This document shows positions 43,896 through 61,579 of a DNA stretch of 64,000 nt, in pieces; position 1 is the stretch's first letter, and each line of letters begins with the position of its first letter. The notes below the pieces were generated by a model. That model saw nothing but the letters and a program-made list of their open reading frames with translations. It searched no databases and had not been told where the DNA came from. The position numbers were made by a program, and so were the translations under genes. Source of the stretch: Vulcanimicrobiota bacterium (GTDB lineage: Bacteria > Vulcanimicrobiota > Vulcanimicrobiia > Vulcanimicrobiales > Vulcanimicrobiaceae); assembly GCA_027306785.1 (NCBI GenBank), contig DAHUZB010000006.1:1-64000 (forward strand), given 5' to 3'.

Positions 43896-46040
43896 TTAGC
43901 GAGGGCGCTCGGGATCGGCGATCAGCCGCGCGTAGTGCGCGCTCGCATCGGTCGGTTTGCGCTCGAGTGCGGGATCGTCGTCGAGATCGATGTGAAAGAG
44001 CCCGAAATCGCTGTTCTCGTCGAAGACCAGCCCCCATTCGCGGTTCGAGGTGATGCTCCAACAAAGATACGCGGCGACGGGAACGCCGCGCTCGGCCGCG
44101 CGCCGGACTTCGCGCACGTGGGCTTCCAGATAGGCGGCACGCGTGAAGCCGTCGGCCTCTTTCACGCAGCCGTTTTCGATCACGACGATCGGCTTGCCCG
44201 GGAACGCCTGCGCCTGCTCGCGCAGGATCATCTCGAGCGCGCTCGGCCACACCGGCGCGCTCGCGTATTTGAACTCGGCGGCGGCGCTCAGGCGATGGAG
44301 TTCGGGCGGCCAGAACGAGGGAACGCCCCAGTAGTAATCGAGCCCCACGTAGTCGAGGCTGCCGACGCAGTCGGACGGACAGAGAAAGGACGGCAGCTTT
44401 CCGGCCATGCCGAGGTTCCACCAATTCGTGCCGAGCAGCGTGCCGAAGATGGCGAGCGTTTTGCGCAGGGTGAAGAGCGCCTGCAGCCACGAGCGCGTGG
44501 CTTTGAAGCGTTTGTCGCCGTGGAGCGGCACGAACTCCACGCGATCCGCGTCGCCCAGAATGTGCCGTGCGAGACGACGCCCGATCTCCGGCTCGAGTCC
44601 GGTGTAGCGGTGCGACGGTGCGACGTTACGATCCGGCGACTCTTCGCAGAGCCCGGGAATGCCGGGATGAACGCCGACCCGCAGCACGCCGCGACGCACG
44701 ATACGGTCGAGCGAGCGATCCAGACGCGGAATTTCGTGCGTTTCGTGCGAGGCATCGCCGCGTCCGATGTGCGCGACCGTTTTGCGATTCGCGGCGTGCG
44801 GCAGATCGGGGCGCTCGCGTTTGAGTTCGCGCAGCACGCGGTCGACCGCATTGAGGAGCGTGCGGCTGCCGAAGGCCGTGGCGACCGCGAAATACTGCGT
44901 GGGAGCGGGCACGCGGGCGAGCGCGAGCGCGTCGTTCGCGAACGGCCGGAGCACGACGTCGTCATCGAAGACCGCGTCGATCTCGCCTGCGCGCAGGGCG
45001 GCGGCGGCGAGCTGCGGGCTCGGATAGTACAGCAGGCGCGCGGCGGGGAAGATCGAGACCGCTTGACGCGATGGCAACATGTCGGAGACGACACCGATGC
45101 GGCCGTTCCAGTGCGTGCGATCGACGGGCGGCGGCGCGGATGCGGGATGCAGCACGCAGAGGTGCGCGGCGAAGTACGGCTCGGAGAAGAGCGCGGTGGC
45201 CTCGCGCGCGGCGGTCATGGTGATCTGCGCGATCGAGACGTCCACCTGCCCGCCTTCGAGCAGCCACGACTGCGAGAGGTGCGCCGCCTGTTTACGCACC
45301 TGCTCCGGCGAGGTGAGGCGCGTGGCACGGCGGTCGACGAGGCGCTGCAGCCAACGCGGCAGTCCGAGGACGAGCGGATTGGCGCCGACGCGCGCGTTCG
45401 GCGTACGCGCGCGAATCGCATCGCGCGAACGCGCATGCGCGCGAAAGAGGTTGGGCATCAGCGTGAGGACGTCGTCCATCTGCCGATCGCTCGTCATGTA
45501 CGGCGGCTGACCGGGCGGCATCGCGTAGCTGCGCATCCAGAATCCGCGAATCCAGCCGTAGACGAGCTGATTGGGTTCGTTGAGCGTGACGTAGTAGTCG
45601 ATCAGATCGCCGAGCCGTTCCGCGACGACGGCCGCGTACTGCGCCATGCGTTGTGGAAAGCCCGCGTCGAGCAGCCCCGCGCCGTTGCCCGCCGCCTGCA
45701 CGTGCAGCGGCCAGGTGTTGTGCACGAGGGTGACCACGGTCTCCATTCCGGCGGCGCGCATCGATTGCAGCACGTCGCGATAGTGCGCGAAGGCCGCGTC
45801 ATCCCAGTGCCCGGGTTCGGGTTCAAGGCGCGCCCACGAGAGCGAGAGCCGAAAGATCGTGCAGCCGAGCGACCGCGCGAGCTCGACATCCTCGCGATAG
45901 CGATTCCAGAAATCGGTCGCGCGACCGCGCGGCACGAGCCCGCGCACGCGCTCCCACACGTCGCGAATGTCGTCGCTGCCGTCGTAGGCTTCGCATTGAT
46001 GGTCGGCGGTGGCCACGCCGAAACGGATCGTATCGGCCAT
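43896..46040 (-). CDS. GH1 beta-glucosidase interrupted by a circularly permuted family-3 solute-binding domain
   Basis: 714 aa, no signal peptide. Residues 1-~258 are the N-terminal half of a GH1 barrel (FGVATADHQCEAY; acid/base Glu155 in YVTLNEPNQ). Residues ~518-714 are the C-terminal half (LDYVGLDYYWG; nucleophile Glu622 in VVIENGC; CWSITSNREWGL). Between them is an SBP_bac_3 domain in the wrong order. First comes its middle and end (GGQVDVSIAQITMT with TxxR at Arg279, FSEPYF, AGEIDAVFDDD), then a ~30-residue linker, then its beginning (RGVLRVGVHPGIPGLC, LEPEIGRRLARHI, VEFVPLHGDKRF). Both junctions encode Ser-Trp-Leu and share a 10-bp direct repeat (45260-45269 and 44483-44492), 777 bp apart; removal leaves a 455-aa GH1. 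Start at ATG 46040. Confidence 0.85.
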   Translation of the reverse strand: MADTIRFGVATADHQCEAYDGSDDIRDVWERVRGLVPRGRATDFWNRYREDVELARSLGCTIFRLSLSWARLEPEPGHWDDAAFAHYRDVLQSMRAAGMETVVTLVHNTWPLHVQAAGNGAGLLDAGFPQRMAQYAAVVAERLGDLIDYYVTLNEPNQLVYGWIRGFWMRSYAMPPGQPPYMTSDRQMDDVLTLMPNLFRAHARSRDAIRARTPNARVGANPLVLGLPRWLQRLVDRRATRLTSPEQVRKQAAHLSQSWLLEGGQVDVSIAQITMTAAREATALFSEPYFAAHLCVLHPASAPPPVDRTHWNGRIGVVSDMLPSRQAVSIFPAARLLYYPSPQLAAAALRAGEIDAVFDDDVVLRPFANDALALARVPAPTQYFAVATAFGSRTLLNAVDRVLRELKRERPDLPHAANRKTVAHIGRGDASHETHEIPRLDRSLDRIVRRGVLRVGVHPGIPGLCEESPDRNVAPSHRYTGLEPEIGRRLARHILGDADRVEFVPLHGDKRFKATRSWLQALFTLRKTLAIFGTLLGTNWWNLGMAGKLPSFLCPSDCVGSLDYVGLDYYWGVPSFWPPELHRLSAAAEFKYASAPVWPSALEMILREQAQAFPGKPIVVIENGCVKEADGFTRAAYLEAHVREVRRAAERGVPVAAYLCWSITSNREWGLVFDENSDFGLFHIDLDDDPALERKPTDASAHYARLIADPERPR

Positions 46041-46099
46041 AGCTGCGATGTGCGGTGCGTGCAGGGAGCATCCCTTTGCGTGCACGAACGCGAACCGCT

Positions 46100-46834
46100 A
46101 TGAGATTTGCCGGAAAAACCTGTATCGTGACCGGCGGCGGCTCCGGGATCGGCCGCGCCACCGCGCTGCAGATGGCGCGCGAAGGCGGACGCGTGGTCGT
46201 CGCCGATCTTCAGCTCGCGGCGGCGCAGGCGACCGCGACGGAGATCGCGGCCGCGGGCGGCGCCGCCATCGCTTCGCAAGTGGACGTGGGAAATTCGGCG
46301 CAGGTGCAGGCGACGATCGCAAGCGCGGTCGCGCAGTACGGCGCGATCGACGCGATCGTCAACGACGCGGCGATGATGACGTTTCATCCGATCGTCGAGA
46401 TCGCCGAAGCCGATTTCTTTCACGTGATCGCGACCAACCTCGGCTCGGTCTTTCTCTTTACGAAATACGGCGTGCCGCACATGCGCCCGGGCGGAGCGAT
46501 CGTGAACGTAAGCTCCGTGCACGCGCACGCGACCACCGCGAACGTGGTGCCGTACGCGTCGTCCAAAGGCGCGATCGAAGCCTTTACGCGCGGTGCGGCG
46601 ATCGAGCTCGCGGCGAGCAAGATACGCATCAACGCCGTCGCGCCCGGCGCGGTGGATACGCCGATGCTCCGGAACAACCCGAACGTCAAGAGCGGCGTGG
46701 AGAAGGTGCAGGGCGCGATCGGCAAGCCCGAGGATCTCGCCGCCGCGATCTGCTTTCTCGCCTCCGACGATGCGGCGTTCGTGAACGGGACGACGCTCGT
46801 GGTCGACGGCGGGCGCCTGGACTCACTGCCCTAA
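46100..46834 (+). CDS. Short-chain dehydrogenase/reductase
   Basis: 244-aa classical SDR: TGGGSGIGRAT cofactor motif, NDAAMM (NNAG position), catalytic Ser in VSSVHAHAT, YASSKGAIEAF active-site Tyr/Lys, and PGAVDTPML plus GTTLVVDGG at the end. It diverges from the GH1 fusion gene (59-base gap) and converges on the NahK-like gene with a 12-base overlap. Substrate unknown; sugar or 3-oxoacyl reduction are both plausible. Confidence 0.85.
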   Translation: MRFAGKTCIVTGGGSGIGRATALQMAREGGRVVVADLQLAAAQATATEIAAAGGAAIASQVDVGNSAQVQATIASAVAQYGAIDAIVNDAAMMTFHPIVEIAEADFFHVIATNLGSVFLFTKYGVPHMRPGGAIVNVSSVHAHATTANVVPYASSKGAIEAFTRGAAIELAASKIRINAVAPGAVDTPMLRNNPNVKSGVEKVQGAIGKPEDLAAAICFLASDDAAFVNGTTLVVDGGRLDSLP

Positions 46835-61428: not shown

Positions 61429-61504
61429 TGGTAGCCCCAGCGGGATTCGAACCCGCGTTACCGCCGTGAGAGGGCGGCGTCCTAGGCCTCTAGACGATAG
61501 GGCC
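61429..61504 (-). tRNA. tRNA-Glu (CTC)
   Basis: Cloverleaf on the minus strand with acceptor GGCCCTA / TGGGGCT (a G-U closes each end), D-arm TCTAGAGGCCTAGGA, anticodon stem CCGCC/GGCGG around loop CTCTCAC (anticodon CTC), TpsiC arm GCGGGTTCGAATCCCGC, discriminator A and an encoded CCA end. Reads Glu codon GAG. Confidence 0.95.
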
Positions 61505-61505
61505 A

Positions 61506-61579
61506 TGGCTCCCGGTCATGGACTCGAACCACGAATACCTGGTTCAGAGCCAGGCGTGATACCATTTCACCAACCGGGA
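61506..61579 (-). tRNA. tRNA-Gln (CTG)
   Basis: Cloverleaf on the minus strand: acceptor TCCCGGT / ACCGGGA, anticodon stem CCTGG/CCAGG with loop CTCTGAA (anticodon CTG), TpsiC loop GGTTCGAGTCC, discriminator G as usual for Gln, and encoded CCA. It ends one base before tRNA-Glu, so they are one transcript. Confidence 0.94.

Follow-up and report, generated by a model that had tools for sequence, protein, structure and literature searches.

A single gene encodes a GH1 enzyme whose barrel is interrupted, between beta-5 and beta-6, by a circularly permuted family-3 solute-binding protein (SBP_bac_3) domain. It lies in the window, by which we mean the whole 64,000-nucleotide stretch of DNA that was analysed. 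The fusion is old, is conserved across three phyla and is under purifying selection. From the sequences and predicted structures, we think it fairly probable that the product is an ancient, natural GH1 beta-glycosidase, likely cytoplasmic, with a built-in permuted amino-acid sensor. The features are listed in Table 1.

Table 1. Positions of the parts of the fused gene, in window coordinates.
Feature	Coordinates	Strand	Remarks
Whole gene, GH1 with inserted permuted SBP_bac_3, 714 aa	43896..46040	-	starts MADTIRFGVATADHQ
GH1 N-terminal part, residues 1-252	45285..46040	-	beta-1 to beta-5
Acid/base E155 in TLNEPN	45576-45578	-	
SBP middle and end, residues 257-409, first in chain	44814..45272	-	last part of lobe 1, lobe 2, back to lobe 1
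T274 (ligand amine) and R279 (carboxylate) positions	45204-45221	-	by alignment to LAO (PMC5740067)
SBP lobe 2, about residues 293-383	44892..45164	-	segment excised in eight relatives
D360, amine-binding Asp	44961-44963	-	by alignment
Linker between original SBP C- and N-termini, residues 410-440	44721..44813	-	low pLDDT, poorly conserved
SBP beginning, residues 441-513, last in chain	44502..44720	-	first part of lobe 1
GH1 C-terminal part, residues 517-714	43899..44492	-	long helix, NWW..LGMAGKLP, beta-6 LDYVGLDYY
Nucleophile E622 in VIENG	44175-44177	-	
TCGTGGCTGC, junction 1 copy	45260..45269	-	not conserved in relatives
TCGTGGCTGC, junction 2 copy	44483..44492	-	not conserved in relatives

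The gene is a single uninterrupted reading frame beginning with the ATG at 46040. Pfam finds Glyco_hydro_1 (PF00232) in two stretches of the 714-residue protein, with E 1.4e-39, and SBP_bac_3 (PF00497) over residues 261-409 with E 2.2e-08, the latter covering profile positions 54-119 only. The stretch that corresponds to the start of the SBP profile is found downstream of the remainder. The interrupting block of about 260 residues therefore runs middle and end, linker, beginning, which is the order of a circular permutant rather than the native N-to-C order of the family. When the window domain is re-ordered, the profile match begins at profile position 17, and the re-ordered protein matches 2yjp with E 1.6e-09. 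The SBP of a cyanobacterial homologue from Fischerella PCC 9431 (L052) scores 87 bits, split between two stretches. Once its block is put in native order, the alignment with the glutamate-binding 5eyf spans the whole length (E 1.5e-37), and so do those with GlnH of M. tuberculosis and PEB1a of C. jejuni. Aligned with free-standing SBPs of related genomes, the re-ordered domain shows small gaps only, except at the permutation point. There, between RxPLL (immediately upstream) and GxVD, about 18 additional residues connect the SBP of the fused proteins to GH1. Since the alignment is otherwise poor in gaps, the permutation is a true circular one. The frame, the Pfam matches and the re-ordering agree with the in-frame permuted insertion that a sequence-only reading of the window had proposed, and the profile search on re-ordered parts that it had called for came out in its favour. 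The genome of the window has one other SBP_bac_3 match only (C30:2775-3449), in normal order and covering profile positions 1-130.

An AlphaFold2 model of the whole chain, built on 35 homologues, has a pLDDT of 84.2 and a pTM of 0.85, and aligns with GH1 enzymes (VIA Z 36.8) over 382 residues. Residues 250-520 modelled alone give a pLDDT of 88.0 and a pTM of 0.85, with strands and helices in the order of a two-lobed SBP. The isolated block comes nearest to 5eyf with its bound glutamate, with a Z of 14.1 for the sequential part (152 residues, rmsd 1.9). For the same block, Foldseek ranks the tandem SBP pair of BvgS first (277 columns), as would be expected of a unit in which an SBP end precedes an SBP beginning. 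Both the predicted models and the fold searches give the two-lobed fold of periplasmic-binding-protein type II, and the block is predicted to fold as a complete SBP, the outcome on which the sequence-only reading had staked its proposal. The insert sits between beta-5 (217-221) and beta-6 (565-572); by barrel topology rather than by measured distance, this would put it in the beta-5 exit connection on the catalytic face.

The enzyme belongs to a divergent GH1 subfamily, scoring 154.7 bits with TIGR03356 against a cut-off of 478.5. Residues Q15, H107, N154, E155, E622, W661, E668 and W669 do not vary across the rows compared, whether insert-bearing, insert-less or outgroup, and the two catalytic glutamates are thus intact, as had been claimed. 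By its profile, its predicted fold and its -1 subsite and catalytic residues, the protein is predicted to be a retaining GH1 glycosidase. Its N-terminus, MADTIRFG... (MADTIRFGVATADHQ), has no apparent signal peptide when read by eye, and from this start the protein is probably cytoplasmic.

Members of the gene family appear in about 50 of the 103 genomes of the window's order (Eremiobacterota; our own count). The fusion is also found in Chloroflexota (L063, L097, L099) and in named heterocystous cyanobacteria at about 43% identity, and is rare across cyanobacteria at large (2 of 291 sampled). One record titled Proteobacteria (L074) was found within the same phylum sample as the Chloroflexota rows. 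The caution that homologues might already sit in databases was well placed, as dozens were found. A search for plasmid-borne copies gave none covering 80% of the query. In a tree of the GH1 part, all insert-bearing proteins and the insert-less L081-L083 form one group, with the insert-less L102 and L103 outside; the support is 99, or 89 in the tree with L129 and L130 added. Placing all insert-bearing rows in one clade gives a p-AU of 0.506. The tree data are compatible with a single gain of the insert, and a secondary loss in L081-L083 is equally likely as a single insert-bearing clade. The five insert-less relatives (L081-L083, L102, L103) retain all the GH1 residues, and so the sensor would be dispensable for catalysis. 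For the SBP, dN/dS lies at 0.07-0.34, and for GH1 at 0.01-0.17. Taken per lobe it is below 0.5 in both, with 0.06-0.47 for lobe 2, which evolves faster than lobe 1 in Eremiobacterota, the window included. A frame change in or close to the SBP block disrupts the fused gene of Westiellopsis prolifica (L078) and that of L066. Two Eremiobacterota proteins (L133, L134) carry about 60-70 extra in-frame residues in the SBP N-part, after the GVxPG.xGLC motif, of low-complexity, repeat-like sequence (AQDDT/AQDET, ATMRATRRIGRAG). Palindromic elements were considered as the source of this extra sequence and rejected, as no suitable inverted repeats were found.

The putative ligand site is that of an amino-acid SBP. 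R279, T274 and D360 align with Arg77, Ser72 and Asp161 of LAO, and in LAO-type SBPs, Arg77 binds the carboxylate and Ser72 and Asp161 the amine (PMC5740067, PMC4192606). By alignment, then, the window protein has the carboxylate Arg and the amine-binding Ser/Thr and Asp. Among full-length proteins, R279 is kept in 30 of 30, position 274 is T or S in 27 of 30 and position 360 is D or E in 29 of 30; the ligand residues had been called intact, and conservation upholds this. The conserved set points to a free alpha-amino acid as the ligand. Cyanobacteria and Chloroflexota have a canonical Ser/Thr loop in lobe 2, but in Eremiobacterota this loop is degenerate (S-D-M-L in the window), so the window protein may have a different ligand or bind it more weakly.

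Nature has also removed half of the clamp. In eight relatives (L070, L072, L073, L075, L076, L086, L129, L130), lobe 2 is excised and lobe 1 and GH1 are kept, the missing segment lying between the hinge motifs FSxPY and (Y/L)A(V/A). Loss of lobe 1 alone was not seen. We considered whether the lobe-2-less proteins are one clade. With six rows, before L129 and L130 were added, p was 0.064; with them included, the single clade is strongly rejected (AU p 1.2e-6). Since the eight are not monophyletic, lobe 2 was excised at least twice, and the tree suggests about four times. T274 has become A, E, P or G in all eight, and R279 is kept in seven of them. The amine-binding T274 thus persists only in proteins that have the clamp, and of all our findings this speaks most strongly for binding of some ligand by the clamp. 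One of the eight (L076) reads TLNAPNH for TLNEPNQ, the acid/base Glu apparently missing; that locus has masked bases.

The gene neighbourhood is not that of an importer. In the window the neighbours are a secretin, a short-chain dehydrogenase (SDR) and other non-transport genes, and no ABC-transporter genes lie beside the fusion in the neighbourhoods examined (window, cyanobacteria). The marks of an ABC-importer SBP, namely a signal peptide or lipobox and adjacent permease and ATPase genes, were not seen. The search for a shared neighbourhood that would indicate the substrate gave local patterns only, the SDR in Eremiobacterota and oxidoreductase/hydrolase clusters in cyanobacteria. The SDR (46055-46834, +) is divergent and adjoins the gene in L034 and L041 too; an SDR has this position in several Eremiobacterota. 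The cyanobacterial clusters (L052, L053, L056, L057, L071, L077, L080 / L054, L055, L058, L060, L061, L062, L064) are of two kinds, one with a GMC oxidoreductase, DUF6765, a 3beta-HSD-like epimerase and an alpha/beta hydrolase, the other with a RoxA-like cytochrome, a P450, an alpha/beta hydrolase and a metallo-beta-lactamase-fold protein. Their gene content hints at lipid or terpenoid glycosides. Elsewhere in the window (61429-61579, -), genes for tRNA-Glu (CTC) and tRNA-Gln (CTG) lie side by side.

Since both connections to the barrel are in lobe 1, that lobe would be fixed to the enzyme and lobe 2 would be the mobile jaw; barrel topology would bring this jaw up against the mouth of the active site. 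Lobe 2 would close on an L-alpha-amino acid bound in the cleft; in swinging relative to the barrel, it would reshape the aglycone side of the active site or alter how easily that side is reached. Lobe 2 would then serve as an amino-acid-operated lid or lever. We infer that an amino acid binds, and that it gates, with either an upward or a downward sign, the cleavage of a sugar substrate in the cytoplasm. The sequence-only reading had suggested that an amino acid gates the enzyme, and this is plausible, as both machineries appear intact. Since the Ser/Thr loop is degenerate, lobe 2 evolves faster and lobe 2 has been lost repeatedly, sensing may be fading in Eremiobacterota. We would give an even chance to the fuller account, in which a permuted Venus flytrap was set once, long ago, at the rim of a TIM barrel, making a cytoplasmic glycosidase switchable by amino-acid (nitrogen) status, and several lineages unlocked the enzyme by excising the moving lobe.

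How the fusion arose was part of the sequence-only reading, which had a circular DNA carrying an SBP frame enter by a single crossover at a shared 10-bp site. The two copies of the 10-bp sequence are indeed present where it had placed them, 777 bp apart. A match of that length is expected 0.29 times in the window, and among random codon-aligned 36-mers the probability of at least 10 bp is about 0.005, which is mildly unusual. However, the fusion is common to three phyla, and the junction match in the nearest relatives is 8, 7 and 5 bp, the 8 and 7 being within the same genus. Further relatives have mostly 4-7 bp, and one (L010) has an unrelated 10-bp match. SWL at junction 1 is restricted to the nearest relatives, and the S at junction 2 is old. 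Because the repeat shrinks in relatives and SWL at junction 1 is a local novelty, the repeat is uninformative on the origin, and since relatives have the fusion without it, it arose after the fusion. The same order would also result, without any circle, if an SBP were duplicated in tandem and the two outer halves were then lost. The crossover is thus very improbable. In our account, a family-3 SBP, nearest to the glutamate/aspartate type, would have been inserted, probably once, into the GH1 barrel where the link from beta-5 to beta-6 carries an extension specific to the clade; the SBP termini would have been joined by the linker, and lobe 1 would have received new ones immediately ahead of the conserved GxVD. 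An assembly chimera or a pseudogene has a next to negligible chance. The window does come from a draft genome of 35 contigs, but two other genomes of its genus, independently assembled, encode the same architecture at 78-80% identity, passing the test for a chimera that had been set, and named cyanobacterial isolates have it too. With dN/dS well below 1 in addition, we reject this reading.

The same facts about lobe 2 can be read as decay. The SBP could be a structural relic that binds nothing now in this lineage, with lobe 1 completing the GH1 fold or an oligomer contact; the repeated loss and faster evolution of lobe 2, the degenerate Ser/Thr loop in Eremiobacterota and the failure to see lobe 1 lost by itself would all fit. 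We hold this to be rather doubtful, since full-length Eremiobacterota proteins retain R279 and D360, the lobe-2 dN/dS stays at 0.06-0.47, and T274 decays only in the absence of lobe 2. It is unlikely, too, that the SBP binds its ligand as a non-allosteric accessory, recruiting or channelling a substrate with an amino-acid-like group, such as a glycosylated amino acid or an opine-like conjugate. Among the nearest folds is SocA (5l9o), an SBP for sugar-amino-acid conjugates (29% identity, Z 14.0), and topology would put the insert on the same side of the barrel as the active site. Yet generic amino-acid SBPs score equally, tying within 1 Z, and the conserved T/R/D set indicates a free alpha-amino acid.

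With GH1 beta-glucosidases such as T. maritima BglA (1od0) and BGL167 (4r27), the window protein shares the complete (beta/alpha)8 barrel, the NEP acid/base, the ENG nucleophile and Q15, H107, N154, W661, E668 and W669; it differs from them in the SBP between beta-5 and beta-6 and in its divergent subfamily. With family-3 SBPs (E. faecium 5eyf, C. jejuni PEB1a 2v25, M. tuberculosis GlnH 6h1u, LAO), it shares the two-lobed fold and the TxxR, Ser/Thr and Asp set, but its SBP is permuted, is inside an enzyme and has no visible signal peptide or adjacent ABC-transporter genes. The architecture is real and old, and SBP-controlled enzymes are already known as a kind; our search of the open-access literature turned up neither a natural GH1-SBP fusion nor an enzyme that naturally houses a permuted SBP. 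The regulatory domain of the lytic transglycosylase MltF is of the SBP type. Its allosteric activation was reported by Dominguez-Gil 2016, as cited in PMC10746161. MltF likewise joins, in nature, a regulatory domain to a glycan-cleaving catalytic domain, but it is an end-to-end periplasmic fusion of an unpermuted SBP with a lysozyme-like fold, whereas here a permuted SBP lies inside a probably cytoplasmic TIM barrel. Closer in layout are engineered switches, in which a permuted or split SBP is nested with an output protein and closure on the ligand alters the output. R-ncp-iGluSnFR1 joins the permuted glutamate SBP GltI to a non-permuted red fluorescent protein, and in xylanase-XBP chimeras the xylanase is inserted into a xylose-binding protein (PMC6335823). 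Those are man-made; the window fusion is natural, ancient and under selection, and its switching is what we infer. It looks like an evolved, long-conserved equivalent of the engineers' ligand-switched enzymes, one that may tie the use of glycosides to the amino-acid level, both in soil bacteria about which little is known and in cultured, testable cyanobacteria. The natural series of full clamp, lobe-2-less and insert-less proteins offers a way to measure the gain and loss of allosteric control.
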